From: Sphingobium sp. 15-1
Lineage (GTDB): Bacteria; Pseudomonadota; Alphaproteobacteria; Sphingomonadales; Sphingomonadaceae
NCBI RefSeq assembly: GCF_013375535.1
Contig: NZ_JABXJG010000003.1
Location: forward strand, 62,001-126,000
DNA: 64,000 bases
Direction of reading: 5' to 3'
A program made the translations under genes and the position numbers. Positions 19,787-51,216 of this stretch are shown here, in pieces. Each line of letters begins with the position of its first letter. Within the stretch, counting starts at the first letter, position 1. The notes under the pieces were generated by a model that searched no databases, had not been told where the DNA came from, and worked only from the letters and a program-made list of their open reading frames with translations.

Positions 19787-19794
19787 ACGAGACT

Positions 19795-34684: not shown

Positions 34685-35332
34685 ATGGCTAGGATAGGCG
34701 TCCGCGTCGATGAGAATGGCCGCGTAGCAGCGCGGGAGCGTTTGCTGGACGCAACCAGCGCATTGCTGAGCGAGCGTGATACGCTGGACATTTCTCTCAG
34801 CGAGATCGCCGTTCGGTCTGGGCTCAATCACGGGCTGGTGAATTATTATTTCCGGGGTAAGGAGGGGCTATTGCTGGCTCTCCTCGAGCGCGACGCTGCC
34901 AAAGCCCTGCACAACCTCGAATATCTTGTTGTCCAGGATGTGGCGCCGCTTAAAAAGCTCGAGCTGCACATCCGTGGTGTCATCAACGTCTACTTCCGTT
35001 ATCCCTATATCAACCGACTGATCAATGTTCTTCAGTCCGGCAATGCCGAAACCGCTCGCGAATTAGCCAGGATTTTCATAGCGCCACTTCAACAGTATCA
35101 GGCACGCATCCTCGACGAATGTCGCCAGGCCGGCGATATAACCTCTGTCGACACCAACCTTTTCTATTATACCGTGATCGGCGCGTGCGAGTTTCTGTTC
35201 CATTCGCGCAGCACCCTGCCATTTCTATCGGGCCCCCCGGAAATTACACCAGCCCTCAAGGACGCCTACGCCGATCATCTGGTGCGCTTCCTTCTCGACG
35301 GGCTGAAGACCAGAAGCGAGCGTCTCGGCTAG
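34685..35332 (+). CDS. TetR/AcrR family transcriptional regulator
   Basis: A 215-residue regulator. The helix-turn-helix is evident: RERLLDATSALLSERDTLDI, then SLSEIAVRSGLNHGLVNYYF and GKEGLLLALLERDA. The C-terminal domain begins KLELHIRGVINVYFRYPYIN and resembles the RutR/TetR_C group. It is divergent from the alcohol dehydrogenase and 23 bp ahead of a MalT-like regulator with which it is probably co-transcribed. Confidence 0.87.
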   Translation: MARIGVRVDENGRVAARERLLDATSALLSERDTLDISLSEIAVRSGLNHGLVNYYFRGKEGLLLALLERDAAKALHNLEYLVVQDVAPLKKLELHIRGVINVYFRYPYINRLINVLQSGNAETARELARIFIAPLQQYQARILDECRQAGDITSVDTNLFYYTVIGACEFLFHSRSTLPFLSGPPEITPALKDAYADHLVRFLLDGLKTRSERLG

Positions 35333-35355
35333 AGAACGCCCAAGGAGTAGGATCA

Positions 35356-37917
35356 ATGCTCAGGACCCACGCACGAAGTGCAGAGACGGTTTCCTCTGCA
35401 GTCCAGTCTCAGGCCGTGCCCGAGGCACGCAATGTGGCGAGCAGGGCTGTCCCCACAAGGGCGTTCGAGCGATTGCGCCAGAGCAAGTCCAGCGTGATCC
35501 TCATCTCCGCGCCGCCAGGCTATGGCAAGACGACCCTTTTGCGGGGCTATTCCGACGCGATTGAATATGCTGGCGGACAAGTCGCGTGGTGCCAACTGGA
35601 TCGCATCGTCAGCGACGGGCAACCCGGCGGAAACGCTGACGTCATCTTCATCGACGATGCCCACGATGCCGATTCGCGCAAATTTGCCCGGCTGATCCGA
35701 ACCATCACCTCCAATGATGCGACACAGTGTTTTGTGATCGCTACGCGGATGCTTCCCGACATGGACTGGATCAGTCTCGTGGCAAGGGGGCGGGTTGAAA
35801 TACTAGATGTGGAACTCCTCGCCCTTGATGAAAATGAAGTCGGTGCGCTCCTTGGTTTCTATGCCGGCCAGATGCCGAGCGCGGGACAGACTCGGAAAGT
35901 ATCGCAATGGATCGAAGGCTGGCCGATCGCCGCGCAATGCTATGGCATGCTGGCAAGGCGACGTGGAGGATGGTCAAAGGTAGATATTCGTGAAGTCTAT
36001 CCCCGCGATGATCTCGGTCAGTATCTCAACGAAAGCATATATTCAGAGCTTGATGACGCAATGCGTCGCTTTCTGTTTGATCTGGCGGATTTGGAGCGTT
36101 TTTCGCCGGCAATGCTGCGAGAGGTGATCAATCCCTCGTCCGAGCTCCTTCTCCAGCGCGCCCGACTTGAAAATGTCATGATCGTTCCTGCCACAGGCGG
36201 CGGCGATTGGCTGCGACTTCACGGGATATTTCAGCAGTTTCTGGACGCGAAAAAGCGACAGGCTGGCGCGACAAAAAGTATTGAGCTTCTGCGCGCTGCC
36301 AGTGATTGGTGCGAGTGGCGGGAGGCCTATTGCGATGCTGTCGACTACGCCCTTGGGGCAGGTGACCTCCAACGTGCGCAAGACCTTATCGTCACAAATG
36401 CGGCCAATATCGCCCATGGTCTAGGCGAATTGCCGCGAATGCTGGCTTGGACCGAACAGCTCGAGCAAGCCGGTCAACCAATCTCCATTCCACTCAGGCT
36501 CTGGAAGACATGGGCACTGGTGCTGGCCCTGCAAGTTGATCCGGCGCTGGCCGAGCTCGACATTCTCGACCGTGAGATGCCCGAAGACGCGCCCAGGCTC
36601 TGGCTGGCGCATCGCGACAGGCTGAGGGTTAGCGTCGCCGCGCGGGGCGATGACATGCTGGCACTGGTCGATCTGGCGGACAACTGGATGACGCGCTGGG
36701 AACAGCTCGATTCGTTTCACACCGCCGCAATCTGTGTCACGCGATCTCTGGGGCATTATCAGTTGGGAGACAGGCATGCGGCCCGACGTGACCTGCTGGT
36801 TGCCCGTCAACGGGCTGGAGAAGGGGGCGGAAAATACGGCCAGCTTTGGGTCGCGAAGGCGGAAGCCTATCTCGAGCTTCAATCTGGTCGTGCGACCCGG
36901 GCTCGAGAAATCATTCTTTCCGCGCTCGAACGCGCCCACGCATCCGACGAGATCGCGGCATCGATGATCGGAACCATCCACCTGCTCGCCGCGAGAATTC
37001 TTGTCGAGACGGGCGAGGTTGCCCTCGCTCGCGAACATCTCTCCGCAGGGCATCTCCATGTCGGCGATAATGGGCTGATCGAAGCGCACATTGCTGCGCT
37101 CGAAGCCGCAACACTGCTTGCCGAGGAATCTGATGGTGTCGATGCGGCGCTGTGTGAGACCCAGCATCGGTTGGTCAGGGGGCTGCGCTACGGCGTAAGC
37201 GCCGACCTGCTGGCGGTGGCCCTTCAACTTAGGCACGGTCGCGCCGCGGATGCATCGGACAATTTCAATGCAGCATTTGTCGGCCTTGCCGAAGGGTGGC
37301 GGCATGTTGCGACGGGGCAGTTGATCCCTCAATATATGGCCCATGATGTCGAACAGACCCATGCCTGGGTGGCGCTCAGCGAGGGAAAGGTCACTGAGGC
37401 ATCGGCAATTGCCACCAGGTTGCTACCGGCTGCCGAGAAGGCAGGGCGTGCGCGCGATCATGTCCAGCTCCTGATGCTTTCGGCGACCTGCTCGGCGGGC
37501 GCTGGAAAAATGGGGGACGCCAAACGCAGCTTCGAACGCGCCATCCGCATGGCCAGCGAGCGAGGATTTCACCGCACGATCTTGGACTTTGGATGGGGCT
37601 TGACCTCGTTGCTCGCGGAGACCGACCTGTCTTCGACTGTGACAGGAGCGAGCGGAGTTCTCATCGAAGCGCTGCGTTCGCGCTATCGTATACAGGCTGA
37701 AGGAAGTAACGAGCAGGCCCCGGTCGACCGGCTGACGGCGCGCGAGCATGAGGTGTTGGTTCTGCTGGATACCGGCCTAACCAGCCAGGCCATCGCTGAC
37801 CATATCGACCTGGGCCTTTCCACGACGAAGTGGCACATTCAGAATATCTACAACAAGCTTGGAGTGCGTAATCGGTCGGGCGCCCTCGCGCGCGCCCGCC
37901 GATTGGCCATGCTGTAG
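35356..37917 (+). CDS. MalT-like LuxR family ATP-dependent regulator (LAL type)
   Basis: 853 residues from the ATG at 35356, which has GGAGTAGGA upstream; earlier in-frame codons overlap the TetR gene. N-terminal NTPase domain: Walker A APPGYGKTT at 52-60 and Walker B VIFIDDAHDAD near 96-106. The middle is helical with TPR-like repeats. The last 65 residues are a LuxR-type helix-turn-helix: LTAREHEVLVLLDTGLTSQ, AIADHIDLGLSTTKWHI, YNKLGVRNRSGALARAR. Such regulators activate catabolic operons in response to a ligand (maltotriose for MalT; alkylphenols or alcohols for others). It lies between the alcohol dehydrogenase and aldehyde dehydrogenase gene sets, converging on the latter with a 3-bp gap. 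Confidence 0.88.
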   Translation: MLRTHARSAETVSSAVQSQAVPEARNVASRAVPTRAFERLRQSKSSVILISAPPGYGKTTLLRGYSDAIEYAGGQVAWCQLDRIVSDGQPGGNADVIFIDDAHDADSRKFARLIRTITSNDATQCFVIATRMLPDMDWISLVARGRVEILDVELLALDENEVGALLGFYAGQMPSAGQTRKVSQWIEGWPIAAQCYGMLARRRGGWSKVDIREVYPRDDLGQYLNESIYSELDDAMRRFLFDLADLERFSPAMLREVINPSSELLLQRARLENVMIVPATGGGDWLRLHGIFQQFLDAKKRQAGATKSIELLRAASDWCEWREAYCDAVDYALGAGDLQRAQDLIVTNAANIAHGLGELPRMLAWTEQLEQAGQPISIPLRLWKTWALVLALQVDPALAELDILDREMPEDAPRLWLAHRDRLRVSVAARGDDMLALVDLADNWMTRWEQLDSFHTAAICVTRSLGHYQLGDRHAARRDLLVARQRAGEGGGKYGQLWVAKAEAYLELQSGRATRAREIILSALERAHASDEIAASMIGTIHLLAARILVETGEVALAREHLSAGHLHVGDNGLIEAHIAALEAATLLAEESDGVDAALCETQHRLVRGLRYGVSADLLAVALQLRHGRAADASDNFNAAFVGLAEGWRHVATGQLIPQYMAHDVEQTHAWVALSEGKVTEASAIATRLLPAAEKAGRARDHVQLLMLSATCSAGAGKMGDAKRSFERAIRMASERGFHRTILDFGWGLTSLLAETDLSSTVTGASGVLIEALRSRYRIQAEGSNEQAPVDRLTAREHEVLVLLDTGLTSQAIADHIDLGLSTTKWHIQNIYNKLGVRNRSGALARARRLAML

Positions 37918-37920
37918 GGA

Positions 37921-39342
37921 TCAGGCAGCCTTGGCAGCCTTTACGGTGATCGTTTGGGGCATGGTATATTCGAGCAGGCCGCCCAAGCTATTCTCGACAC
38001 CGAGGCCTGACTGCTTGTGACCGGCAAATGCCTGGAATGGCGAAAGATGTTGAACTTCATTGACCCAGACGGTTCCGGTCTCTAGCCGCGCGGCGATTGC
38101 CAGCGCTGCGTCGGTGTCCGACGACCAGACTGAACCTGCCAGCCCAAATTCAGAGGCATTGGCGCGAGAAATCACATCCTCGAGTTCGCTGAACTTTATG
38201 AGGGGCAAGATGGGGCCGAAAGCCTCTTCCTGAACAACGCGCGAATCTTCAGGCGGGTTGTCGATGATGGTCACGGGAATGAAATAGCCTGAGCCATCCT
38301 GCGGGACGTTACCGCCAGTGAGAAAGCGAAGCCCCTTGTCCTTGCAATCGTCGATGATCTCCACGACCCGGTCGAACTGTTGCTTATTCTGCACAGGGCC
38401 AAGTTCGGTGCCTTGTTCGGAACCGTCACCCATTTTCACCGATTGCGCATAGTCTGTCAGGGCCGCGGCAAGCCGATCATAAATCGCTTCATGGACGTAC
38501 ATCCGCTTGGTTGCGATGCAGATCTGGGCCGAGTTCCGGAAAGCAGCCCAGAACAGGTCCTTGGCAACAGCATCGACATCGACATCGGGCATGATGATCG
38601 CCGCATCATTGCCCCCAAGCTCGAGCGTCACGCGCTTGAGGTCGGCGGCAGCCGACGCCATCACGCGCTTGCCCGTGGCGGTCGAGCCGGTAAAGCTGAC
38701 CTTGTCGATTCCCGGGTGAGCCGTCACTTTCGGGCCGAGCGCGTCACCTCCGGTGATGATGTTGAGTACGCCATCGGGGATGACGCCGCGCAGCAGTTCG
38801 CCGATCCGTAGCATCGTCAGCGGTGTGAAGGGAGACGGCTTCAGGATCATGGTGTTGCCCGCTCGCAACGCCGGGGCGATCTTCCAGAAGGACAGCAGGA
38901 CCGGGAAGTTCCAGGGCGAGATACCGGCGACGACGCCTATAGGAACGTGCCGTGTCTCGGACCGCCGCTCGACGCTATCCTCGTTCACTTCGACGGGTAT
39001 CTCCATCCCCGCCAGCGACGATAGCCAATAAGCTGCGCCCATTATCTCGAAACGGGCTTCGTCATGAGGCTTGCCCTGTTCGCTCGTCAGCAGGCGCATG
39101 AGTTCGTCTGCATTCGCGGCCAGCACAGCGGCGGCGGCCTTGAGGACACGACCACGGTCCATATCCGACGTGGCCCGCCAGGCCGGAAAGGCTGCACGTG
39201 CGCTTGCGACGGCCTGTTCGAGTTGCTCGGTCGAGCAATCGGGAGCGGTTGCGAGCGGCTTCCCGGTTGCCGGATTTATGACAGTGATCACGTCGGTACT
39301 CTCGACTGCCTTGCCGGCGATTGTCATCGTAAAATTTTTCAT
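37921..39342 (-). CDS. NAD-dependent aldehyde dehydrogenase
   Basis: 473 residues, normal ALDH length. Seen: Asn145 in ISPWNFPVLL, cofactor site FTGSTATGKRV at 217-227, general base Glu241 in LELGGNDAAI, and the nucleophile Cys275 in NSAQICIATKR. It oxidises an aldehyde to the acid, or possibly to a CoA ester if of the acylating type, though the sequence around Cys275 favours the simple hydrolytic class. Last gene of the minus-strand operon that starts with the TonB receptor; 12 bp after the crotonase gene. Confidence 0.9.
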   Translation of the reverse strand: MKNFTMTIAGKAVESTDVITVINPATGKPLATAPDCSTEQLEQAVASARAAFPAWRATSDMDRGRVLKAAAAVLAANADELMRLLTSEQGKPHDEARFEIMGAAYWLSSLAGMEIPVEVNEDSVERRSETRHVPIGVVAGISPWNFPVLLSFWKIAPALRAGNTMILKPSPFTPLTMLRIGELLRGVIPDGVLNIITGGDALGPKVTAHPGIDKVSFTGSTATGKRVMASAAADLKRVTLELGGNDAAIIMPDVDVDAVAKDLFWAAFRNSAQICIATKRMYVHEAIYDRLAAALTDYAQSVKMGDGSEQGTELGPVQNKQQFDRVVEIIDDCKDKGLRFLTGGNVPQDGSGYFIPVTIIDNPPEDSRVVQEEAFGPILPLIKFSELEDVISRANASEFGLAGSVWSSDTDAALAIAARLETGTVWVNEVQHLSPFQAFAGHKQSGLGVENSLGGLLEYTMPQTITVKAAKAA

Positions 39343-39354
39343 TGTCAGTTTCCC

Positions 39355-40128
39355 TTAGCGACCTGTCCAACGCGGTGCGCGTTTCTCGATGAAAGCGCGC
39401 GGACCTTCCTTATAATCGTCGGTGAGCGCGAGCCTCTTGCCCATGGCAGCGGCTGCGGCTTCAAGATCTTCTTCGGGCCGATTATACGCGTCACGCGCTA
39501 TTACCAAGCTTTCTCTGACGGCTATCGGCGCATTCGCCGCGATGAGTTCGGCCAGCGCGAGAGCCTCTGCGGCAACATCGGTTTTCGCGACGACCCTGTT
39601 CACCAGACCGAAGGCGTGTGCGCGAGCGGCGGAGATCGGCTCGCCCGTTGCGATAAGTTCAAGGGCGATTGCACGGGGCAGTGCCCTGGGGAGCCGGAAG
39701 AGGCCGCTCGCTAACGCGGCCAGGCCTCGCTTGACCTCCGGTAGCCCAAGCTTCGCGTCATCTGAGACGACCGACATGTCGCAAGAAAGAACAATCTCCG
39801 TACCACCGGCCAGGGCGACGCCGTTTACTGCCGCGATCCAGGGCTTCTGGCGCGGCGCTCGGACGAACCCCGCAAACCCGCCGTTACGGGTAACGAGGTC
39901 GCCAATTCTGCCTGCTGAAATCTCTTTCAAGTCCGCGCCGGCGCAGAATGCACGATCTCCGGCGCCAGTGAGGATGACACAGCGAATCTCGTCGTCGGCC
40001 TCGGTTTCGATGACCGCCTGTTCCAGCGCGCGCGCTACCGCTCCATTGATCGCGTTCCGCGCATCAGGGCGGTTGATGGTGACCCGCGCGACGTGAGGGA
40101 CGGGGCGGTCAACGAGGATTTCGGTCAT
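39355..40128 (-). CDS. Enoyl-CoA hydratase/isomerase (crotonase) family protein
   Basis: About 257 residues. The ATG at 40128 is chosen because it overlaps the stop of the preceding gene (TAATG). Seen: the oxyanion-hole segments RAFCAGADLKEIS and AAVNGVALAGGTEIVLSCDM, and both catalytic glutamates (GGTE and LPEVKRGLAALASG). It hydrates a 2-enoyl-CoA or performs a related crotonase reaction. Operon context with a CoA-transferase, a thiolase-like protein and an aldehyde dehydrogenase points to breakdown of an acyl-CoA intermediate. Confidence 0.88.
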   Translation of the reverse strand: MTEILVDRPVPHVARVTINRPDARNAINGAVARALEQAVIETEADDEIRCVILTGAGDRAFCAGADLKEISAGRIGDLVTRNGGFAGFVRAPRQKPWIAAVNGVALAGGTEIVLSCDMSVVSDDAKLGLPEVKRGLAALASGLFRLPRALPRAIALELIATGEPISAARAHAFGLVNRVVAKTDVAAEALALAELIAANAPIAVRESLVIARDAYNRPEEDLEAAAAAMGKRLALTDDYKEGPRAFIEKRAPRWTGR

Positions 40129-41606
40129 TAAAGTCTCCATTCCAGCAGGCCGTCATCCCCGGTCGTCACGGTTCCGTTCTCGCCGATCGGCGAACGCGAC
40201 ATGTCGGTCAGACGCGCAATTGTATGTGTATCGGCAGGAGGGACGCGCGCCATGGTGCGCCGACCGTCGAGCGTCCGCAGAATCACGATCCCGCGATCGA
40301 TAGCGTTGTCACGACCGTACAGGACGGTGAAACTCTCAATGGCCGCGCGTCCCTCGTAGCAGTCTATTACAAGTGGCACAGCGCCCCGTATCGCATCGGC
40401 TTTGTTGTCGACGCGGTAGTCCATGGCCGGACGCATCTGCGGCCTATAACTCGAGAGCACGACGGCGTGATGCTTGGTCACGAAATCACCCTGGCCGTAA
40501 AGCAGGCCGTTGCCCGCTTGCGCCCTGAGCTGGCGTGTCATCGCACATGTCGCGTGCAGCATATAATCGTTGAACGGTCCGCCGAAGAAAGTGAGCCCGC
40601 CCGTAACGGTTGGTACGACATCTTCGCCCAGACCAAGCGTGCGCCGCGCCATCTTGGGCACGCAGGGGAAGCAGCTGTAAAGTTCGAGATGGTCGAACGG
40701 AGCCTCATTCAGGGCGCCGACCGCTTCGAGTACCGCCTGCTGAGAGGGGGACGTGTGATAACAGTCCCGATCAAGATAATCCTCGGGCTCCTTCGATGCG
40801 GCGCCGCCAATGAGATAGATCATGCGGGCTGGATCGACGCCCAGGTCACGTGCCGTTTCTTCCGCCATGATGATAGCGGCCGCGCCCTGATTCACCGTTG
40901 GATTGGCCACCATAAGCTTGGGATAGGGCCACGCGACCAGCGGGTTTTGCGGTGTGACCGTCGCAATTTCCGAGGGCGCAACGGCGCGTTGCAGCCAGGC
41001 GGTAGGGTTGATCGAGGCGACGGCGGCGTAGCGCGACCACAGGTCCGCCGATTCGGCCTGCGCTTCGGCCGGGGTCATGCCCCATGCCTGCAGCGTGGCA
41101 TTCTCGAACAAGGGATAGATGTAGGTCGGTTGCGCGATGCCATGGGCGCGGCCCATCGGGGAAATCATTTCCTCGACCCGCCACGGTTGCTCCATGACCT
41201 TCGCTTTGGCGACCCATGGTAGATCAACGCCCGCCTTGCGCGCCTTCTGTATGGTACTGCGCGCCTCTCCACCGCAGATAAGCGCGATCCTGGACTGCCC
41301 GTCGATGATACGCAGGGCAGCGTCGTGCAACACCCTCAGTGGACTTTCGCCGCCGCCAGCATGATAGGTGGCGCGCGCGGGCGCAAGCCCCAGCCGCTCG
41401 CATAATTTGCGTGCGGTATCCTCGTAACGCCATGAGATCTGATGTATCACCTCGACAGCGTCGATCCTGTCCAACAGGGCGACGCCGCTATCGACCTCTG
41501 CATTCCTCGCAGCGGCTGCCATAAGATCCAGGGGATCGAGGCCCAGGAAAGGCTCCGGCGGCCGATCCTTGATTTCGCCAACACCGACAATGACCACATT
41601 GGTCAT
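40128..41606 (-). CDS. Thiolase-like (acetyl-CoA acetyltransferase superfamily) protein without nucleophile Cys
   Basis: 492 residues, longer than degradative thiolases (about 390), with an extra C-terminal domain of the thiolase-like/OB type (residues about 410-492). The N-terminal thiolase fold is seen in NVVIVGVGEIKDRPPE, but where thiolases carry the Cys nucleophile this protein reads YHAGGGESPLRVLHDAALRI, with no Cys. Later parts (NEAPFDHLELYSCFPCVP and GGLTFFGGPFNDYML) follow the SCP-x-like group. It may act as a thiolase variant, a retro-aldol-type lyase or a scaffolding subunit; activity is uncertain. It overlaps the CoA-transferase gene by 4 bp. Confidence 0.78.
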   Translation of the reverse strand: MTNVVIVGVGEIKDRPPEPFLGLDPLDLMAAAARNAEVDSGVALLDRIDAVEVIHQISWRYEDTARKLCERLGLAPARATYHAGGGESPLRVLHDAALRIIDGQSRIALICGGEARSTIQKARKAGVDLPWVAKAKVMEQPWRVEEMISPMGRAHGIAQPTYIYPLFENATLQAWGMTPAEAQAESADLWSRYAAVASINPTAWLQRAVAPSEIATVTPQNPLVAWPYPKLMVANPTVNQGAAAIIMAEETARDLGVDPARMIYLIGGAASKEPEDYLDRDCYHTSPSQQAVLEAVGALNEAPFDHLELYSCFPCVPKMARRTLGLGEDVVPTVTGGLTFFGGPFNDYMLHATCAMTRQLRAQAGNGLLYGQGDFVTKHHAVVLSSYRPQMRPAMDYRVDNKADAIRGAVPLVIDCYEGRAAIESFTVLYGRDNAIDRGIVILRTLDGRRTMARVPPADTHTIARLTDMSRSPIGENGTVTTGDDGLLEWRL

Positions 41607-42820
41607 GCGGCGGCATCCGGTGCTCTACCCAGTCCGACGTCTGCGAGGATTTCCTGGGTGTGCTCGCCAAGACGGGGCGGATCACGGCGGACAGAAGCCG
41701 GCGTTGCACTGAATCGAACCGGATGCCGCAACGAGATATACGTACCTTCGGATGGGTGCTCGCGCTTCTCGAAAAAGCCGATGGCGTTCAGATGCTCGTC
41801 GTTGAGAACTTCGTCCAGACGGTTGACCTTCATGCAGGGCACGTTGCGTTGGGTCAGGGCATTGACCCACTCGCGCGTTGTCTTCGTCTTGGCGACTTCC
41901 TCGATCATCGCATAGATTTCGCTGATATTCTCGGTCCGGAGCGCATAGGTCGCGTAGCGGGGATTCTTCGTGAACGTACCCGGCGGCAGCCCGCCGATCT
42001 CGAAGAAATCGTCCCACTGCGAATCTGAGTAGGGGAGGATCGCGAGGTAGCCGTCCTTGGTCGGATAGGGCTTGCGGTTGGGATTGAACACGCGACTGTA
42101 ACCAAAACTGCCAGTCGGGGGCTCAAAAGTATGGCCGTAAAGATTCTCCGTCATGTTGAAATAGCTGAAGCATTCGAACATCGGCACTTCGACAAACTGA
42201 CCCTGGCCGCTACGCTGCCGATGGAACAGCGCTGCCATCGTCGCATAAGCGCCGAACAGGCCAGATGACTTGTCGGCAATCAGCGATGGCTGGTATCGCG
42301 GAGCCGGGTTTCCATCGACCCGGCTCATCAGGTCCGTGCCGCCCGCAGCAGCCTGGATCAGGTCGTCATAAGCCTGCTTCTTGGCATAGGGACCCTCCGA
42401 GCCGTATCCCGAGCAATGGACATAGACGATATCGTTCTTCAGCGCTTTTACCGCCTCATAACCAAAGCCGAGCTTTTCGAGCCCCCCCATTCGGACATTG
42501 GTGATGAAGATATCGGCGCCCGCGATCAGCCGCCGCAGTGCCTCGCGGGCGTCTTCCTGCTTGAGATCCAGCAGCACGGACCGCTTGTTGCGGTTGTAGT
42601 GCATGAAGATCGGCCCCATCGCCTGGGTCCTGGCGGACTTGCCCGTATAACGGAAGATATCGCCCCCATTGTCGGCGCGGGTTCCCGGCGCCTCGACCTT
42701 GATGACATCGGCGCCCAGGTCGCCGAGGATCTGCGAGGTATAGGCACCGAAAAGGACGCTGGTCATGTCGACGACTTTTATGCCGTCGAGTGCACCGGGC
42801 GAAGCAATGGGGACGTTCAC
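41603..42820 (-). CDS. CaiB/BaiF family (class III) CoA-transferase
   Basis: 405 residues, the usual family length. Seen: N-terminal GIKVVDMTSVLFGAYTSQILGD, the DLGADVIKVEAPGTRADNGG segment, NRNKRSVLLDLKQEDAR, and the catalytic Asp in LIADKSSGLFGAYATMAALF followed by RQRSGQGQFVEVPMFE. These enzymes move CoA between carboxylic acids through a mixed anhydride on the Asp. It would activate the acid substrate of the operon. It follows the TonB receptor by 16 bp and overlaps the thiolase-like gene. Confidence 0.88.
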   Translation of the reverse strand: MNVPIASPGALDGIKVVDMTSVLFGAYTSQILGDLGADVIKVEAPGTRADNGGDIFRYTGKSARTQAMGPIFMHYNRNKRSVLLDLKQEDAREALRRLIAGADIFITNVRMGGLEKLGFGYEAVKALKNDIVYVHCSGYGSEGPYAKKQAYDDLIQAAAGGTDLMSRVDGNPAPRYQPSLIADKSSGLFGAYATMAALFHRQRSGQGQFVEVPMFECFSYFNMTENLYGHTFEPPTGSFGYSRVFNPNRKPYPTKDGYLAILPYSDSQWDDFFEIGGLPPGTFTKNPRYATYALRTENISEIYAMIEEVAKTKTTREWVNALTQRNVPCMKVNRLDEVLNDEHLNAIGFFEKREHPSEGTYISLRHPVRFSATPASVRRDPPRLGEHTQEILADVGLGRAPDAAA

Positions 42821-42836
42821 GTTGACCTCTATTCGG

Positions 42837-45257
42837 TTAATATTTGAAGGAAGCGACCAAACCGTAGGTCCGCACCATTCCGGGAACCCGGATGGACGTG
42901 TCGGTCAGAATATCGGTCGCGGTATAATAATTCTCGTTGAAGAGGTTGCGGGCATAGAGGCCGATGCTCCAGCGATCGTCCTGCCGATGCAACGCGATGT
43001 TCGCGTTGACGATCGTATAGGCCTTCACGTCAAACACCGGATCCTCGTCGAGCGAACCGACGGTCTTGCCCTGGTAGTTGCCGTTGGCGCCGAACTGGAT
43101 CGCAAGATCGTCATTGATCGGTAGATCGTAGGAGACCAGCGCGTTGAGCTGATACTTCGGCGTGAACGGGAATGCCGAACCGGCAAAGTCCTGCGCTTGG
43201 CCGAAGCGGTTGAAGCCGGTGAACTCTGTGACCTTGGTGTGGGTGTATGACGCGCCGAATTTGAGCAGCAGCTCGCGTGTTGGCGAGATGGTGATGTCGG
43301 TCTCCGCGCCGTACACTTCGGACTTGGGGATATTCACGATGCGGGTCAGCGAAACGAAGATCGGATCGAGTATTTCGCCGAACACCTGCTTGTCGCGATA
43401 GTCATAGAAGAAACCGGCGGCGTTGAACTGCACCAGGCGGTCAAGCAGTCCCAGCTTCACACCCGCCTCATAGGCGGTAACCTTCTCCTGGCGCGCTGGA
43501 ACGAGCTGGGTGGCTACGTTGGCGGCGACCACCGGGAAGGCGCCCGACTTGTAGCCGCGGCTGACCGATGCATAGGCCAGGGTGCGGTTGTTGGGAGTCC
43601 AGGTGAGGGCGAGGCGCCCTGACACATTATCCTGCTTGAGCTGGCTGCTGACAAGGCCGGCCGGACCTGAAAAATCGGCCTTATAGGTCAGGCACTGATT
43701 GGGGCCGATTCCGGGGTTGGCAAACGGACGGCCTGTCCTTGCGGCAACGATTGCCGCCACGCCCGTATTCCATACCGGCGCGGTGTTGTTGTCATGGTCG
43801 GCCGAGCAACCTTTGAAGTCGAGCTTGTCGTCCGAATAGCGTACGCCCCCGCTGATCTTCAGCTGGTCGGAGATCGCCCAGTCCGCGTTTGCAAATGCGG
43901 ACAGCGAGCGGCTGACTTGGCTGGACAGATTTCGGAACGTGTTGAAACCGTTTGCGATCTGCGTGGGAGTGTAGGTCGTTTGCGGAACCGTCTGGCCCAG
44001 GAAGGCCAATGTATTGAGGATCGAGGAGTCGCGATAATAGCCGATCTGGTCGTCGCGAATTTTGTCGCGCGAAAAATAGCCACCCACGATCCAGTTTACG
44101 GGGCCAGTCTCGCCCGTCAGGCGCAACTCTTGCGAAAAGGATCGGATGCGGCCGTCCGAGAGATATTCCGATGGTTCGAAGGTCGTGCCATCCACGTCGT
44201 TCATGTCATGACGCTTGACGTCGGAATAGCCTGAAAGCGATGTAAAAGTCAGGGCGTCATTCAGTTCATAATCTATCCGGCCAGTGGCAGACCAGAAGCT
44301 GGAGTCTGCCTTGTAGGCTGGCTTGCCCGCATAGCTCGGACCCCAACTCGCCTCGCCGGCCTTCCAGTTCGTACGGATCTGCGATGCAAGCCCTGGCGCG
44401 ACAAATGGCGCAGAGTCGGGATTGAAGGCGACCGCCTGGACCGCGATCGTGTCGGAATTATCTTTCCAGAAGGAACCGCCGAGCGTGACGGTCAGGCGAT
44501 CTGTGGGTTCCCACAGCAGGGTGACGCGCCCACCCATCCGGTCTTTTTCACCGAGACGCTGTCCGGGCACATTGACGTTCCGCTGCCAGCCCTTGTCGGA
44601 GGTGTCCCAGCGTCCCGCGACGCGGATGCTCAGCGTGTCCGTCAACGGCCCGCTGACGAAACCTTCGAAGTTGATCGTCTCGTAATTGCCCAACTCTGTC
44701 GTCAGACCGGTATGGAAATCCCTGGTGGGCTTCGCGGTGATGAAATTCACCAGGCCACCAGTGGTGTTCCGGCCATAGAGCGTGCCTTGTGGCCCCTTGA
44801 GTACCTCCACCCGCTCGATGTCGTAGGAGGGACCGTTGCTCATATAGGGATAGGCGTAGGCGACCTCGTCGATATAGATGCCGACGGGCGAAGTTGCCGA
44901 CAGATTGGGCGTGTTGAAGCCGATGCCGCGCACCGTATAAATGGGCGTATTGGCGCTCGAACGGCTGAAGTTGAACGCGGGAACCAGTTGCGAGATACCC
45001 GCTGCGTCGGTCACGCCGGCCTTCACGAGGGTGTCGCCACCAAATGCCTGTATCGAGAGAGGCACCTTGTTGATGCTTTCCGATCGGCGCTGCGCCGTCA
45101 CCACGATATCACCGACCCCGCCATCAGCATCCTGATCGGCGGTTGGGGCCTGCTGTGCAGACGAGGCAGCTTGTTCCTGCGCCTGCGCTACAGTCGACAG
45201 AGCTGCTATTGCGATCGCCACGCACGACACCGTCATCAGATACTTAGTTCCAGGCAT
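42837..45257 (-). CDS. TonB-dependent outer membrane receptor
   Basis: About 806 residues. The second ATG at 45257 is favoured because GGAGGG lies 6 bp before it, whereas the ATG at 45263 abuts that site. Signal peptide ends AQAQEQA; then the TonB-box region GDIVVTAQRRSESINKVPLS and plug motifs YTVRGIGFNTPN and LKGPQGTLYGRNTTGG. The barrel ends PGMVRTYGLVASFKY with a terminal aromatic residue. First gene of the operon with CoA-transferase, thiolase-like protein, crotonase and aldehyde dehydrogenase, so it probably imports their carbon source. Divergent from the acyl-CoA ligase gene. Confidence 0.92.
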   Translation of the reverse strand: MPGTKYLMTVSCVAIAIAALSTVAQAQEQAASSAQQAPTADQDADGGVGDIVVTAQRRSESINKVPLSIQAFGGDTLVKAGVTDAAGISQLVPAFNFSRSSANTPIYTVRGIGFNTPNLSATSPVGIYIDEVAYAYPYMSNGPSYDIERVEVLKGPQGTLYGRNTTGGLVNFITAKPTRDFHTGLTTELGNYETINFEGFVSGPLTDTLSIRVAGRWDTSDKGWQRNVNVPGQRLGEKDRMGGRVTLLWEPTDRLTVTLGGSFWKDNSDTIAVQAVAFNPDSAPFVAPGLASQIRTNWKAGEASWGPSYAGKPAYKADSSFWSATGRIDYELNDALTFTSLSGYSDVKRHDMNDVDGTTFEPSEYLSDGRIRSFSQELRLTGETGPVNWIVGGYFSRDKIRDDQIGYYRDSSILNTLAFLGQTVPQTTYTPTQIANGFNTFRNLSSQVSRSLSAFANADWAISDQLKISGGVRYSDDKLDFKGCSADHDNNTAPVWNTGVAAIVAARTGRPFANPGIGPNQCLTYKADFSGPAGLVSSQLKQDNVSGRLALTWTPNNRTLAYASVSRGYKSGAFPVVAANVATQLVPARQEKVTAYEAGVKLGLLDRLVQFNAAGFFYDYRDKQVFGEILDPIFVSLTRIVNIPKSEVYGAETDITISPTRELLLKFGASYTHTKVTEFTGFNRFGQAQDFAGSAFPFTPKYQLNALVSYDLPINDDLAIQFGANGNYQGKTVGSLDEDPVFDVKAYTIVNANIALHRQDDRWSIGLYARNLFNENYYTATDILTDTSIRVPGMVRTYGLVASFKY

Positions 45258-45465
45258 GTCCATCCCTCCCTCTTATTGAATTGGCCCGAGCGGCCTTGCT
45301 TCATCTTGACTAAGTGCATCCCAAGCGTCGCAACCCCGTAAAAAGGACGGGCACTCATCATTCGGGCTCGAGGCTCGATCAGGACGGCCCCTCCTTTCGA
45401 GTGGGCACGCCCATGATGAGATCGCGCCATACCGCGTTCAGAGAATTGCGATCGGAGAGCGATGA

Positions 45466-47319
45466 ATGGCGGGAGCCTCTACAGCGGAAGAAATCAGAGC
45501 GGCGTTCGCAGAGATTGGGACTGCCGATTTGCCGGGTGTCAGCGTTTATGATGCGATCCGAAGGAAAGCGGAGCTCTATCCCGACAAGCAGGCTGTCATC
45601 GACCTTCCCAGCGCACAGCTCCATGCGATGGCGGTTACGGTCACCTACAGAGAACTGCATAGTTCAATCGTACGAGCGGCGAACTATCTGCTCGGGCGAG
45701 GCCTGCTGCAGGGCGACAGAATCTTGTATATCGCACCCAACGGGCTTGCGGGTCTGACGGGGTTTTGGACTGCCCAGCTTCTGGGCGCGGTCGTGCCGGT
45801 CAATCCCTTCCTCGATCTGAGTGCCATCGCCGAAATCGCACGAGCTGTTGGCGCGCGCGCTATCATGTCCGCGGGACACGGCAGCCCGTGTGGCAGTTAT
45901 CAACTGGCCCGCACTTTGATGGCAATCAATCCTGATCTCGTTTTGCACCTGACGCTGGGCAGCGGCGGCGATGGTGATGCCATTGACCTCTTTCGCGCAT
46001 CGGCATCTGCTCCAGCCGAAAAATATCTTGGACGCGAACCGGGCCTTGACGATATCGCGGCATATTTCCCGACAGGCGGAACGACGGGCACCCCTAAAGT
46101 GGCGCGATTGTCGAATTGCAATCTGTTGGTGGGAGCCTATAGCAGCGCTCTGGCAAGCAGCGCCGATGCCGAGCATGTGGTGCCGTTGGGCTTGCCCATG
46201 TTTCATGTCGGTGGTGGCGTTATTGCCTCGACCCGGACTTTGATACTCGGGCAAACGCTGGTGATATTGACGCCTGCCGGGTTCAGAACGGCAGACCTGG
46301 CAGTGAATTTCTGGGCGCTGGCCGAGAAATACGGACTCACCCAGTTCATATCGGTGCCCACTGTGTTCTCCGACCTGCTCGCGACCTACACGGGCGGGGA
46401 GACCAGCATTCGCTATTTTATCGCGGGTGCCAGCAAGCTGCCATCCAGTCTGTGCCGCGCCTATGAGAGAATTTTCGGCCATGGCATCTACGAAGGCTAT
46501 GGCATGACCGAGACAGCGGGTTTCTGCTGCGTCAACCCAACCGCGTTGCCGCCGAGACCCGGGAGCGGCGGGATCGTAGCGCCATTATATGATGTGAAGG
46601 TCGTAATGCTCGACGAAGCCGGTCGCTTCGTGCGGGAATGCGAAGCGGGCGAAACGGGCAACATCGCGGTCTCCGGGCCAGCGGTATTTCAAGGCTATGT
46701 CGATTCCGCGCAGGACGCAGGTAAGTTCATCTCTGGAATCTCGGGCGCGCGATGGATCGATGCAGGCGATCTTGGGCACTTCGACACCGACGGGTATCTT
46801 TGGATCACGGGACGCGAAAAGGACCTGATCATTCGCGGCGGCCACAATATCGATCCTGCCCCGATTGAAGAGACACTTCTGGACCATCCCGATATCGTCG
46901 ACGCCGCTGCGGTTGGAATGCCAGATGCGCGGGTTGGAGAATTGCCGGTGGCGTTCGTTCAACTTGCCGAGGGCGCACGGCTTGACGAGGCTGGGCTACG
47001 TGCCTTTTGCCAGGAGCGCCTTCCCGAACGCGCTGGAACACCGGTGCGCATCTTCGCTTTGGAAGCACTCCCTCGAACCGCGATGCGCAAGGTCTTCAAA
47101 CCGGAATTACGCCGTCTTGCGGCCAGCGCTGCGGTCGAAAGCCGGTTAGCCGAGGTCGCTGTCCCCGATCGTCTGACGTGGCAGGTCGTCTGCGACGACA
47201 AGGGCTGCCTTGCTGTGGAAATTTGCGGTGACGCGGAGGATCGCGCGCTTTGCGATCCTATCGACGAACAGCTCAGCTACCTCAATTTACACGTCACATT
47301 CTGCGAGACACATTCATGA
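45466..47319 (+). CDS. AMP-dependent acyl-CoA synthetase/ligase
   Basis: 617 residues of the ANL superfamily. Seen: P-loop motif YFPTGGTTGTPKVARLS near 200, YEGYGMTETAGFCC near 345, the hinge WITGREKDLIIRGGHNIDP near 447, and the C-terminal catalytic Lys in LPRTAMRKVFK. It activates a carboxylic acid through an acyl-adenylate to its CoA ester. First gene of the operon with P450, GST and thioesterases, and divergent from the TonB receptor operon, sharing a 208-bp promoter region. It is longer than usual by a C-terminal tail of about 50 residues after the catalytic Lys. Confidence 0.88.
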   Translation: MAGASTAEEIRAAFAEIGTADLPGVSVYDAIRRKAELYPDKQAVIDLPSAQLHAMAVTVTYRELHSSIVRAANYLLGRGLLQGDRILYIAPNGLAGLTGFWTAQLLGAVVPVNPFLDLSAIAEIARAVGARAIMSAGHGSPCGSYQLARTLMAINPDLVLHLTLGSGGDGDAIDLFRASASAPAEKYLGREPGLDDIAAYFPTGGTTGTPKVARLSNCNLLVGAYSSALASSADAEHVVPLGLPMFHVGGGVIASTRTLILGQTLVILTPAGFRTADLAVNFWALAEKYGLTQFISVPTVFSDLLATYTGGETSIRYFIAGASKLPSSLCRAYERIFGHGIYEGYGMTETAGFCCVNPTALPPRPGSGGIVAPLYDVKVVMLDEAGRFVRECEAGETGNIAVSGPAVFQGYVDSAQDAGKFISGISGARWIDAGDLGHFDTDGYLWITGREKDLIIRGGHNIDPAPIEETLLDHPDIVDAAAVGMPDARVGELPVAFVQLAEGARLDEAGLRAFCQERLPERAGTPVRIFALEALPRTAMRKVFKPELRRLAASAAVESRLAEVAVPDRLTWQVVCDDKGCLAVEICGDAEDRALCDPIDEQLSYLNLHVTFCETHS

Positions 47320-48575
47320 TCGAGCCTCTCACCCCCGAATCATTGGCGCGCGCCTCGACCTTCTCAAAGCCGGATGAGGTCTATGATCTTTACGCCCGGC
47401 TGAGGCGGGATGCACCGGTGGTGAAGGCAGAGCCGCGCGGCTATCGTCCATTTTGGGTTATGACTCGCCATGACGACATCATGGCGGTCGAGCGCGATCC
47501 CGCGACCTACGCAGCCGGAGACCGCACTGTCCTGCTGCCCGAGAAGGTCGAAGCGATTTATGAAGCCAAATATGGAGACCGCAACGGCGTCAAGCCGTTG
47601 ACCCATATGGATGGCCCTTATCACCGCGCACATCGCGGCGTCACGATGGACTGGTTTGGTCCGAAAAATCTTCGGAAGTTTGAACCGCAGATCGCGGCGA
47701 TCGCGAAAGAGTTCGTCGATCGCATGGAGGATCTCGGCGATGCGTGCGACTTCTCGGCCGACATCGCTTATTGGTTTCCCCTTCGGGTGGTCATGACCCT
47801 CATGGGGGTGCCAAAAGAGGATGAAGCCCAGGTTCTTCGTTTGACGCAGCGCCTGTTCAGCCCCGCCGACAAGGATCTTAAGACGCAGAACGGCGAAAGG
47901 CCCGCCTCCGCACCTGGCGGCGTGCGCGACGTTTTTGCTGAATTTGGCGATTATTATCGGACCCTGACTGAGGATCGACGCAAGAATCCGAAGGATGACA
48001 TCATTTCCACGATCGCTAATGGCGTGATCAACGGCTGTCCCATGGCTGAACGCGAGATGACGTCCTACTATGTCATTGCATCGACAGCGGGCCATGACAC
48101 GACGGCTGCATCCATCGGAGGAGGCTTGCTGGGGCTCCTGCAATTCCCCGATCAGCTCGGTATGCTTCGAGCCGATCTGGGGCTTCTGAACTCCGCGGCT
48201 GAAGAGTTTGTCCGATGGACGGCGCCGGTGAAGCACTTCATGCGCACTCCACAGCAGGACGTCACCTGGCACGGCACGACCATCGCGGCCGGCGAGGCCA
48301 TCATGCTGTGCTACGCTTCAGCGTGCCGAGACGAATCCGTTTTCCCGGACGGTGATCAGTTTCGCGTCGACCGCAAGAGCAACCCCGCGCACCTCGCCTT
48401 CGGCTATGGCCCGCATTTCTGTCTCGGGAAATTCCTGGCTACCATGGAAATCCGCGCATTTTATGCCGAATTGCTTCCTCGCCTGAAACATGTCGAACTG
48501 GCGGGTGACCCCACCTATATCGAGTCTACCTTTGTCAGCGGGCTGAAAAGCCTTCCTATCCGGTTCAGCTTTTGA
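47316..48575 (+). CDS. Cytochrome P450
   Basis: About 419 residues from the ATG at 47316, which overlaps the ligase stop (ATGA); soluble bacterial type with no membrane anchor. Seen: oxygen-activating I-helix AGHDTT at 258-263, ExxR in EEFVRW near 297, and the heme-binding FGYGPHFCLGKFLA with Cys369. The sequence HMDGPYHRAHRGVTMDWF is the conserved C-helix region. Related sphingomonad P450s hydroxylate terpenoids, steroids or acyl chains with a putidaredoxin-type ferredoxin; a candidate ferredoxin is encoded at 29597. Substrate not predictable. Confidence 0.92.
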   Translation: MIEPLTPESLARASTFSKPDEVYDLYARLRRDAPVVKAEPRGYRPFWVMTRHDDIMAVERDPATYAAGDRTVLLPEKVEAIYEAKYGDRNGVKPLTHMDGPYHRAHRGVTMDWFGPKNLRKFEPQIAAIAKEFVDRMEDLGDACDFSADIAYWFPLRVVMTLMGVPKEDEAQVLRLTQRLFSPADKDLKTQNGERPASAPGGVRDVFAEFGDYYRTLTEDRRKNPKDDIISTIANGVINGCPMAEREMTSYYVIASTAGHDTTAASIGGGLLGLLQFPDQLGMLRADLGLLNSAAEEFVRWTAPVKHFMRTPQQDVTWHGTTIAAGEAIMLCYASACRDESVFPDGDQFRVDRKSNPAHLAFGYGPHFCLGKFLATMEIRAFYAELLPRLKHVELAGDPTYIESTFVSGLKSLPIRFSF

Positions 48576-49204
48576 TGAGGGACAGGCCAAAACTCTACCA
48601 TAGCGCGAATTCCCGCTCCTTCCGCGTTCTTTGGGCGCTGGAGGAGGTAGGGATTCCGTATGACCTCGAGCTTCTGGAGTTTCCACCGCGAACGGCCAAG
48701 CCAGCCTATTTACGCGAAAACCCGCTCGGGACAGTCCCGCTATTTATCGACGCGGATGTGCGAATGACCGAGTCCGCCGCTATTTGCCATTATCTAGGGG
48801 CAAAATATCCGTCCATGGGCTTGGTGCCTGGTCCCCAGGCCTCAAATTTTGGCGCGTTCCTCAACTATCTTCATTTCGGGGAAGCGACCCTCACTTTTCC
48901 ACAAGCGATCGTCCTCCGCTATGGCAACCTCGAGCCCGAAGAACGCCGCAGCAAGCAAATGGTGGAAGACTATTCCCGCTGGTTTCTAGCGCGCGCGCGG
49001 GGGGTTGATGCATTCCTGAAGCTTGGAGATTATGCTGCTGGCCCCGCGTTCACCATGGCTGATATATCCGTAGGATATGCGATCATGTTGTCCCAGTTCA
49101 CCGGCCTGTTTGATCAGCTGAGCGAGCCCATCCACCAATATTGGCTGCGCTTGCAAGCGAGGCAAGCTTTCCTGCGGGCCGTAGCAGTGCAAACGCAAGG
49201 TTGA
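48575..49204 (+). CDS. Glutathione S-transferase family protein
   Basis: 209 residues. The ATG at 48575 overlaps the P450 stop (TGATG). N-terminal thioredoxin fold: YHSANSRSFRVLWALEEVGI with the candidate catalytic Ser, NPLGTVPLF and the gamma-glutamyl-binding TESAAICHYL. C-terminal helical domain includes FTMADISVGYAIMLSQF. It may open an epoxide, isomerise a double bond or protect against a reactive P450 product. Its N-terminal SxNSxxVR-like pattern places it near the beta/theta-like bacterial group rather than the zeta class. Confidence 0.85.
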   Translation: MRDRPKLYHSANSRSFRVLWALEEVGIPYDLELLEFPPRTAKPAYLRENPLGTVPLFIDADVRMTESAAICHYLGAKYPSMGLVPGPQASNFGAFLNYLHFGEATLTFPQAIVLRYGNLEPEERRSKQMVEDYSRWFLARARGVDAFLKLGDYAAGPAFTMADISVGYAIMLSQFTGLFDQLSEPIHQYWLRLQARQAFLRAVAVQTQG

Positions 49205-49286
49205 GGTCCATTGAACGGGGGAGGGCGCAGGAGCCGGTGCGGATAAGGCATATCACTCGAAGCCGCGGGAAGGCTATAGTACCGCA

Positions 49287-49709
49287 ATGATCGATCAGCG
49301 CGCGATTGAAGAGCGACTCGCCCGAGGCCATAACGCCACGATCGGCTTGCGGTATGCGGCCCATGGTGGTGACTGGGCGGAGCTCGTCCTTGATTACGAC
49401 ATCGGGCTGACAGCGGACTGGGACGAAGGCACTCTGGCTTCGGGGCCGATTATCACGATGATGGACCTTGCGACGAGTTTTGCCGTCTGGATACGGAAAG
49501 GTCATTTTACCAATCAGGCCACACTCGATCTGCGGGTCGACTATATGCGTCCAGCCTTTCCAAGACAGCTCGTTTTCGGGCGAGGGGAATGTTACCGTCT
49601 CACCCGCAGCATCGCATTTGTGAGAGGGGTTGCGCATCAGGGCGACGTTGCCGATCCTGTAGCGCACGTCGCGGGCACATTCATGCTCCTCGACGGAGCA
49701 ACGCTGTGA
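49287..49709 (+). CDS. PaaI-like hotdog-fold thioesterase
   Basis: 140 residues. The hotdog pattern is seen in ASGPIITMMDLATSFAVWIR and TLDLRVDYMRPAF, with the Asp in MMDLA in the position of the catalytic acid of PaaI enzymes; the usual HGG motif is replaced by SGP. It would release CoA from an acyl-CoA intermediate of the operon. 82 bp after the GST gene, and coupled by GTGA overlap to a second, truncated thioesterase gene. Confidence 0.78.
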   Translation: MIDQRAIEERLARGHNATIGLRYAAHGGDWAELVLDYDIGLTADWDEGTLASGPIITMMDLATSFAVWIRKGHFTNQATLDLRVDYMRPAFPRQLVFGRGECYRLTRSIAFVRGVAHQGDVADPVAHVAGTFMLLDGATL

Positions 49710-49918
49710 GGCTTCCCCCCTATGCCGAACGATTGCAGGCTGTTCTCGAGCTAGAACAAGGACGGCATCGTGTGATCATGGCTGCCGGCCCCCATGTAAC
49801 TGGTCGGCCGGGCTTTCTTCATGGTGGAGCGATTTCTGGTTTGCTCGAGCTGGCTGCGTTTGTCGCACTGTACGAAGCGATCGGTGAACCCGGCACGATC
49901 CGGGTAAAACCTATCAAC
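49706..49918 (+). pseudogene. Second PaaI-like thioesterase, truncated by IS3-family element
   Basis: Starts at a GTG overlapping the preceding stop. About 71 residues of hotdog thioesterase are present, including the classic GRPGFLHGGAISGLLELAAF, then the sequence is cut at TIRVKPIN by the left end of the insertion sequence at 49919; the frame runs on to a stop at 49951. The missing half is not found beyond the right end of the element at 54166, so DNA was lost. Confidence 0.8.
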
Positions 49919-50003
49919 TGTCCGCCGTCAGCGCCGATGGCACAGATTTGAGGTTGTGAATTAAGGAGGGTTGGGGCTTCGTCGTAGTGACGAAGGAACG
50001 AAG

Positions 50004-50390
50004 ATGAAGCCCCAACCCTCCTTGAAAAAATCGCCGCCGAAGGCCCCTGCTGATCGGGTGGTGAAGGACATCCGGCGGGCGACCCGGCGGCACTTCTCCG
50101 CCGAGGACAAAATCCGCATCGTGCTTGAAGGCCTGCGCGGCGATGACAGCATTGCCGAGTTGTGCCGCAAGGAAGGCATCGCGCAGAGCCTGTATTACAC
50201 TTGGTCGAAGGAGTTCATGGAAGCGGGCAAGCGCCGGTTGGCCGGTGACACCACCCGGGCCGCGACCACTGGCGAGGTGCAGGACCTGCGCCGCGAAGCC
50301 CGCGCCCTGAAAGAATGCGTTGCCGACCTGACGCTCGAAAACCGTCTGCTGAAAAAAAGCATGATCGCGGATGGGGGCGACGACGAATGA
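50004..50390 (+). CDS. IS3-family OrfA (helix-turn-helix transposase subunit)
   Basis: 128 residues from ATG 50004. Seen: helix-turn-helix RRHFSAEDKIRIVLEGLRGD, then SIAELCRKEGIAQSLYYTWS, and a C-terminal leucine-zipper-like coiled coil (EVQDLRREARALKECVADLT). Near the end is a run of seven A residues (50352-50358), the slippery site at which a -1 frameshift would make the OrfAB transposase; the -1 frame is open into OrfB. OrfA and OrfB also overlap by ATGA at 50387. Confidence 0.85.
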   Translation: MKPQPSLKKSPPKAPADRVVKDIRRATRRHFSAEDKIRIVLEGLRGDDSIAELCRKEGIAQSLYYTWSKEFMEAGKRRLAGDTTRAATTGEVQDLRREARALKECVADLTLENRLLKKSMIADGGDDE

Positions 50391-50705
50391 GGTATCCCGC
50401 ATCCGAAAAGCTGGAGATCATCCGGATCGTCGAGCAGTCGCACCTGCCCGCCAAGCGGACGCTGGACCAGCTCGGTATCCCGCGCCGGACCTTCTACCGC
50501 TGGTATGATCGCTATCTCGAAGGCGGACCGGAGGCGTTGGAGGATCGACTATCGGCGCCGAGCCGGGTGTGGAACCGCATTGGCGACGATATCCAGGACC
50601 AGATCGTCGAGATGGCGTGGATTACAGCGAGCTGTCACCGCGCGAACTGGCGGTGCGCTTCACCGACGAGAAGCGCTACTTCGTGTCGGAGGCCACGGTT
50701 TACCG

Positions 50706-50713
50706 CCTGTTGA
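50706..50713 (+). repeat. 8-bp target duplication, left copy (second IS256-type element)
   Basis: CCTGTTGA directly precedes the left inverted repeat of the IS256-family element and is repeated at 53432-53439 right after its other end. Eight bp is the normal target duplication for this family. Confidence 0.85.
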
Positions 50714-51216
50714 GGGACTGTCAGGAATTTCGTGTGCGGCGAGGCGGTTGACCATCAGGCCGTCATGGCCCTGATGAAGCGTTCGCCGAAGAGAACGGCA
50801 AATTGAGCCTTCGCCATGTTCCACTCGCGCGGCGGCATTTTCCACTCTTTTTCCGATCGGTTCAAGATCAGATAGAGCAGCTTGGTGGCCGCCTCATCAT
50901 TGGGGAAATGGCCCCGCGCACGAACAGCGCGACGAAGCTTGGAGTTCAAGGCCTCGATGGCATTGGTGGTGTAGACGATCCGCCTGACTTCGTCGGGGAA
51001 GGCGAAAAATGGGATGACCTCGGGCCATGCCCGACGCCAGCTCTGGCCGATGGCAGGATAGCGCTGCCCCCAGAAGCTCGCTTCGAAGGCCGTCAGCGCT
51101 TCCTCGGCGGCCGCGGCATCGACAGCACGGTAGATGGCCTTCAGGGCCGTTCCGAGCGCCTTACGGTCTTTCCACGCCACGAAATCCATCGAGTTCCGCA
51201 GCAGATGGACGATGCA

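Follow-up and report, generated by a model that had tools for sequence, protein, structure and literature searches.

Operons of the terpABCDE type bring together genes for a cytochrome P450, a ferredoxin, a ferredoxin reductase, an alcohol dehydrogenase (ADH), and an aldehyde dehydrogenase (ALDH); the alpha-terpineol operon of P450terp (CYP108A1) is among the known systems closest to the locus described here. In Rhodococcus globerulus, according to a review, CYP108N12 and CYP108N14 hydroxylate the ring methyl group of the p-menthanes p-cymene and limonene, and CYP108N14 also that of alpha-terpineol (PMC11279926). Two further systems involve proteins with a thiolase fold. Sal, the aldolase of the bile-acid side-chain module Shy-Sal-Sad, carries Gly at the nucleophile position and the catalytic residues Tyr302 and Cys304 within a Y-D-C-Y motif (PMC12329534). 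Thiolase-like protein type 1 (TLP1) of Mycobacterium smegmatis (structure 4EGV) showed no thiolase activity, Gly102 replaces the nucleophilic Cys, YSCF stands for NEAF, and the published account leaves its function open (PMC3406046). These systems can be compared with a catabolic island of Sphingobium sp. 15-1, which lies in a stretch of 64,000 nucleotides (hereafter the window; positions 62001-126000 of contig C3 in a 5.8-Mb genome of three contigs). The island is real, rare, and mobile, consists of about 20 genes, is larger than first described, and is damaged in this strain. Our favored reading, held tentatively, is that it serves the degradation of a hydrophobic cyclic isoprenoid, likeliest a p-menthane-type or larger terpenoid, by a pathway that is started by a P450 and includes a retro-aldol step catalyzed by TLP1.

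The center of the island is a pair of divergent operons. Both had been recognized in a preliminary description of positions 37.9-49.7 kb, and both were recovered with all their listed genes, whose functions are backed by Pfam and NCBIfam. The minus-strand operon encodes a TonB-dependent receptor (42837-45263; Pfam), a class III CoA-transferase of the CaiB/FRC type (41603-42820; Pfam CoA_transf_3, ADKSSG motif), the Cys-less thiolase-like protein (40128-41606), a crotonase (39355-40140), and an ALDH (37921-39342; Pfam Aldedh, ELGG and NSAQIC motifs). The plus-strand operon encodes an AMP-forming acyl-CoA synthetase (45466-47319; Pfam AMP-binding), a CYP108-like P450 (47316-48575; start set by homology and a 4-bp ATGA overlap), a glutathione S-transferase-like protein (48572-49204; Pfam GST_N), and two hotdog thioesterases, the first intact (49287-49709; Pfam 4HBT) and the second truncated (49706-49921). 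None of the operon reading frames contains an internal stop, and the spacing of adjacent genes ranges from an overlap of a few bases to a gap of under 90 bp. The divergent region between the operons measures 202 bp (45264-45465) rather than the 208 bp reported earlier. Next to the minus-strand operon are a minus-strand Zn-dependent ADH of the benzyl-alcohol-dehydrogenase type (33434-34549; closest PDB matches 5tnx and benzyl alcohol dehydrogenase 1f8f) and the plus-strand genes for a TetR regulator (34685-35332; Pfam TetR_C_9) and a MalT-like LuxR-family regulator (35356-37917; Pfam TPR_MalT and GerE, start taken from homology with Sphingobium chlorophenolicum). These three genes had been described as one unit; they are all present, with the ADH gene transcribed divergently from the other two.

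Comparison by tblastn and blastn shows that the island spans 24.1-49.9 kb of the window, includes both operons, and is collinear with a region of Novosphingobium silvae. Therefore, the interval first described covers about half of it. DNA identity to N. silvae is 70-76% overall: 76.0% at 24074-27191, 73.7% at 27138-30331, 73.3% at 33449-45119, and 70.1% at 45526-49884. Each of the 20 island genes, including the truncated thioesterase gene, has an N. silvae counterpart; gene order is kept, and protein identities are 65-90% (87% for the TonB receptor). A core of seven genes (TetR, MalT, crotonase, TLP1, CoA-transferase, synthetase, and P450; 69-88% identity) is found in S. chlorophenolicum without the TonB receptor and the other accessory genes, adjoining a second P450 (45%), a flavin monooxygenase, an alpha/beta hydrolase, and an ALDH (62%). 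Such recurrence in two relatives is more than chance.

The left part of the island, all on the plus strand, contains two short-chain dehydrogenases/reductases (SDRs; 24609-25385 and 25414-26175; both Pfam adh_short, the second as matched by a longer version of its frame; 82% and 88% to N. silvae), an acyl-CoA dehydrogenase (ACAD; 26172-27347), an APH-fold kinase (27296-28417), a canonical thiolase with CGS, NEAF, and GHP motifs (28420-29574; NCBIfam PRK06504 above cut-off), a 2Fe-2S ferredoxin (29597-29911; Pfam Fer2, with the pattern C-x5-C-x2-C ... C), and a GFA family protein (29960-30379; Pfam GFA). Gene content bears out the earlier view that the island is catabolic and covers uptake, hydroxylation by a P450, CoA activation (two genes), and chain cleavage. 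Completeness within 37.9-49.7 kb is not supported: the ferredoxin, the canonical thiolase, the ACAD/kinase pair, and both SDRs sit at 24.6-30.4 kb, on the far side of nested insertion sequences, and at the right end, which is cut short, the ferredoxin reductase is absent from its N. silvae position.

Close relatives of the island are rare. Two overlapping samples, of 397 genomes from the family and 396 from the order, each yielded a close CoA-transferase (E <= 1e-170) in a single genome, which both times was the window's own; neither of the two named relatives is among these matches. The plasmid matches listed include no close island orthologs (best CoA-transferase 49.0%, P450 45.5%, TLP1 51.9%), and none were found in viral contigs. 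The N. silvae island adjoins genes for a TrwB/TraD-type coupling protein and a TrwC relaxase; hence that copy sits beside conjugation genes. In Sphingobium sp. 15-1, TrwC relaxase genes occur on all three contigs (C1, C2, and C3) and RPA-type replication genes on C1 and C2 only, and no 16S match was obtained in any contig. The gene combination had been said to match no nameable pathway, and this still stands: the set is fixed in two other genomes, no named pathway was matched, and none of the open-access papers listed on N. silvae and its strain FGD1, on terpenoid clusters of sphingomonads, or on retro-aldolases resembling thiolases gave a matching cluster.

By sequence and by structural model, the Cys-less thiolase is a TLP1. 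Its C-terminal domain PF18313 scores 40.0 bits (cut-off 26.1), and its predicted structure (mean pLDDT 92.4) superimposes on 4EGV with Z 44.8 and rmsd 2.1 over 439 aligned residues (30% identity), in agreement with the sequence match. It thus resembles the M. smegmatis protein in fold, PF18313 domain, Y-S-C-F motif, and absence of the nucleophilic Cys, and differs from it in being encoded within a CoA-transferase/crotonase/ALDH operon. Thiolytic chain cleavage is most likely the task of the gene product of 28420-29574, and the Cys-less protein probably has a different role. All 20 of the 20 homologs aligned share Gly86, at the nucleophile position, and Y310-S-C312-F without variation, and YSCF was found in an open reading frame at each of the 80 TLP1 loci in the genome_contigs set. 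The TLP1 profile places YSCF in register with NEAF/HDAF of true thiolases. Tyr and Cys of Sal have equivalents in register, with the Asp of the Sal motif replaced by Ser. This match of YSCF and Gly86 to the catalytic residues and the nucleophile position of Sal underlies the proposal that TLP1 is a retro-aldolase, and it suggests that TLP1 breaks C-C bonds by a reaction other than thiolysis. The terms "TLP1", "4EGV", and "YSCF" are absent from the main text of the Sal paper (PMC12329534). As in the Shy-Sal-Sad module, a hydratase gene, a gene for a thiolase-fold protein that has Gly in the nucleophile's place and a Y-x-C motif, and an ALDH gene are grouped; unlike in that module, a crotonase replaces the MaoC-DUF35 hydratase, the motif is Y-S-C-F rather than Y-D-C-Y, and TLP1 carries an extra C-terminal domain.

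The aldolase reading rests on the catalytic residues, the operon context, and the existence of TLP1-crotonase fusions. That a canonical thiolase is encoded elsewhere in the island also speaks for it. Single proteins of 784 and 781 amino acids that combine the two are encoded on plasmids of Novosphingobium sp. EMRT-2 and Sphingobium sp. TomTYG65 (L122:17977-20331 and L123:17908-20253). Their TLP1 part is 32% identical to the island protein and keeps YSCF, their crotonase part is 45% identical, and a CoA-transferase (46-48%) and a TetR-like gene lie 3' of both. Among 37 sphingomonad TLP1 loci, a crotonase gene occurs within 1.5 kb in eight (six on the same strand, one of these at 28% identity), and the next four 1.5-kb bins contain 1, 1, 2, and 1. 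One such locus (L127) has, besides TLP1 and a crotonase, an ADH (55%), an ALDH (62%), a thiolase (71%), an NDP-forming acyl-CoA ligase, and a flavin monooxygenase. The island crotonase itself retains E115 and E135, invariant in seven of seven aligned homologs; enoyl-CoA hydratases have two catalytic glutamates at these positions. TLP1 relatives as such are common, with 479 pattern-matched stretches in genome_contigs and presence in 39 of 149 genomes of the family. A group of loci mostly from Bradyrhizobium (L028-L104) has TLP1 (about 51%) in a different, strongly conserved flank with no crotonase and, in most loci, proteins of about 400 and about 1060 amino acids on the opposite strand.

For the entry reactions, the best PDB match of the island P450 is P450terp (340.8 bits), followed by CYP108D1 (314.1 bits). 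Members of a CYP family share at least 40% identity with another member; identity to P450terp, 40.3% over 407 columns, is right at this border. Of the terp-type set, the P450, a ferredoxin, the ADH, and the ALDH are present here, and the reductase is absent here and present in N. silvae; unlike the P450terp operon, the island adds the CoA-transferase, TLP1, the crotonase, the synthetase, the TonB receptor, the kinase/ACAD pair, and MalT. The 2Fe-2S ferredoxin of the island is the likely electron donor of the P450. Because the P450 is akin to P450terp and CYP108D1, CYP108N enzymes hydroxylate methyl groups, and the ADH is of the benzyl-alcohol type, oxidation of a methyl group through the alcohol, the aldehyde, and the acid to the CoA ester would be the natural reading of the entry genes. 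A plasmid of Sphingobium sp. TomTYG65 (L124) carries a gene for a 45% identical P450, immediately followed by genes for an aryl-alcohol dehydrogenase, an aldehyde dehydrogenase, and a pair of CoA ligases; nearby, on the opposite side, are genes for GFA and a phosphotransferase. This cluster is distant and follows the same logic as the island via other genes.

Two adjacent genes of the left part point to a further specialization. The best solved relative of the ACAD is the ACAD half of ACAD11 (8v3u, residues 376-765), and the second-best match of the kinase, after 3dxp, is the kinase half of the same protein (Pfam APH; 8v3v, residues 7-339). In ACAD10, ACAD11, and the bacterial LvaA/LvaC, a 4-hydroxyacyl-CoA is phosphorylated and the phosphate is then eliminated (PMC11342911). 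The arrangement is similar here, an APH-fold kinase and an ACAD being adjacent and each matching one half of ACAD11; therefore, the island appears equipped for gamma-hydroxylated acyl-CoA, on which the pair, by analogy, would act. Unlike in the Lva pathway, no LvaB/LvaD/LvaE set was recognized in the island.

Taken together, these genes allow the following candidate pathway. The TonB receptor would import the substrate, the P450 with the island ferredoxin would hydroxylate a methyl group, the ADH and ALDH would convert the hydroxymethyl group to the acid, and the synthetase or the CoA-transferase would form the CoA thioester. The crotonase would then hydrate the alpha,beta double bond, and TLP1, with Tyr310 as base and Cys312 as acid, would split the beta-hydroxyacyl-CoA by a retro-aldol reaction into an aldehyde, to be oxidized by the ALDH, and a shortened or ring-opened acyl-CoA. 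Beta-oxidation would be completed by the SDRs, the canonical thiolase, and, where a gamma-hydroxyl is present, the ACAD11-like pair. The substrate is likely a cyclic isoprenoid and probably a plant terpenoid. If this is correct, the island provides nearly all the genes for a pathway of the terpenoid type in sphingomonads, intact in N. silvae, and a testable function for TLP1, a family with an M. smegmatis structure and no assigned activity.

A more specific version of this scheme, worked out by hand and in our view unlikely, takes the CoA-transferase/TLP1/crotonase/ALDH operon for a retro-aldol ring-opening module. A cyclohex-1-enecarbonyl-CoA, such as oleuropeyl-CoA from alpha-terpineol, would be hydrated to the 2-hydroxy compound, TLP1 would break the C1-C2 ring bond to give an omega-formyl acyl-CoA, and the ALDH would convert this to a substituted pimelyl-CoA, so that neither the dehydrogenase nor the ring hydrolase of the BadH/BadI route would be needed. 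One round of beta-oxidation would place the terpineol hydroxyl gamma to the thioester, that is, in the substrate type of the ACAD11-like pair. If so, the TLP1 family would consist of C-C lyases and not of thiolases.

Several observations weigh against the terpenoid pathway with a TLP1 aldolase. The island TLP1 has Ser where both Sal and Ltp2 carry Asp; neither of these aldolases is among the six PDB matches of the TLP1 profile (E <= 0.01); and by fold the protein is about equally close to the Cys-using thiolase 6esq (Z 39.5), TbSLP (39.0), Sal (37.5), and Ltp2 (36.5). Pfam scans of the island proteins revealed no DUF35 domain, and thus no DUF35 partner of the kind present in the bile-acid module. 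At 29 of the 37 sphingomonad TLP1 loci there is no crotonase within 1.5 kb, and in genome_contigs, mostly Bradyrhizobium, a crotonase lies within that distance at three of 80 TLP1 loci, two of the three being this island. CoA-transferase and ALDH genes cluster little or not at all around TLP1 at the sphingomonad loci (3, 1, 3, 2, and 0 in successive bins for CoA-transferase; 3, 2, 2, 1, and 1 for ALDH). The identity of the P450 to P450terp sits at the 40% border. Finally, the copy studied here has no ferredoxin reductase and a broken second thioesterase.

In the strongest competing explanation, TLP1 may be a CoA-ester scaffold or have another weak activity, for example decarboxylation, with all C-C cleavage proceeding by ordinary beta-oxidation through the thiolase at 28420-29574. 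We consider this somewhat less probable than the aldolase reading. It accords with the presence of a canonical thiolase, with the separation of most TLP1 genes from crotonases, and with the position of TbSLP as the nearest nucleophile-less thiolase-like fold outside TLP1, for which the Sal report gives only a very slow malonyl-CoA decarboxylase activity (PMC12329534). It leaves unaccounted for the invariance of the Sal-equivalent residues in all 20 homologs, the TLP1-crotonase fusions on two independent plasmids, and the overlap of the two reading frames in the island.

Insertion sequences part the island into two. An IS110-type transposase fragment (30514-31014, plus strand) and a Mutator/IS256-type transposase (31113-32345, plus strand), both identified by Pfam, lie between GFA and ADH, which are convergent neighbors in N. 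silvae (L026). At the right end, an IS3-family match starts at 49919 within the second thioesterase, whose residues 1-72 match a 135-residue N. silvae counterpart; so of the two thioesterases reported earlier, one is intact and the other is cut. The window lacks the ferredoxin reductase that follows the thioesterases in N. silvae (L026:243-1553; matched in NCBIfam, under the cut-off, by dioxygenase reductases). These facts would suit a decaying copy, in which insertion sequences split the halves and removed the reductase so that the pathway no longer runs. We regard this as unlikely, as the remaining island genes are intact and five reductase homologs with 39-65% identity over most of the length are encoded elsewhere in the genome. 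From the island's right end on, 49919-54092 is occupied by nested insertion sequences: a Mutator/IS256-type element, which has perfect 32-bp inverted repeats (50714-50745 and 53400-53431) and overlaps an IS110-type gene, separates IS3-family pieces at 49.9-50.7 kb and 53.2-54.1 kb.

Still less probable is a role in degrading sterols or sapogenins at their isoprenoid side chain, comparable to the actinobacterial cholesterol side-chain pathway with its terminal P450, ligase, hydratase, thiolase, and aldolase. Resurrected CYP125 ancestors are among the PDB matches of the P450, but at 252.5 bits they score far below P450terp and CYP108D1. The best NCBIfam model for the crotonase is EchA19, below its cut-off, and the thiolase at 28420-29574 scores 386.5 with the steroid thiolase model PRK07850 (cut-off 515); no steroid ring-degradation gene was recognized among the scanned island proteins. 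One of the TLP1-crotonase fusions is on a plasmid of TomTYG65, an isolate from alpha-tomatine-treated soil, but the main text of the tomatine paper mentions neither P450 nor CoA. A crotonase that alone hydrates and cleaves by retro-aldol reaction, as feruloyl-CoA hydratase-lyase does ahead of vanillin dehydrogenase, with TLP1 as an accessory, is very improbable and was rejected: the crotonase-then-ALDH order resembles ech-vdh, but feruloyl-CoA hydratase-lyase has Ser instead of the first glutamate, and all seven homologs have Glu there along with the second glutamate.

TetR and MalT are likely regulators of the island. The divergent promoter region contains an inverted repeat, AAAGGACGGG (45342-45351) and CCCCTCCTTT (45388-45397), with arms 36 bp apart, that is kept in both N. 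silvae and S. chlorophenolicum. Judging from its position and conservation, MalT or TetR might bind there. Over the whole window, the promoter word AAAGGAYGGG shows no enrichment (5 found, 7.05 expected), and its support is the paired, conserved position only.

Other features surround the island. Directly to its left (17622-24048) are genes for an outer-membrane efflux protein, TetR, HlyD, and AcrB-type efflux; beyond the left border in N. silvae (L118:4268-5461) are a second P450, TetR, an SDR, an ALDH, and another TonB receptor. A second catabolic cluster at 310-13173 encodes a glutathione S-transferase, two FMO-like flavoproteins of the Baeyer-Villiger type, an SDR, a Rieske oxygenase, TetR, a TonB receptor, an acyl-CoA dehydrogenase, and a limonene-epoxide-hydrolase-like protein (PF07858, 68.2 bits), and would fit a terpenoid context. 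A ROSE RNA thermometer at 16228-16327 on the plus strand scores over the gathering threshold.

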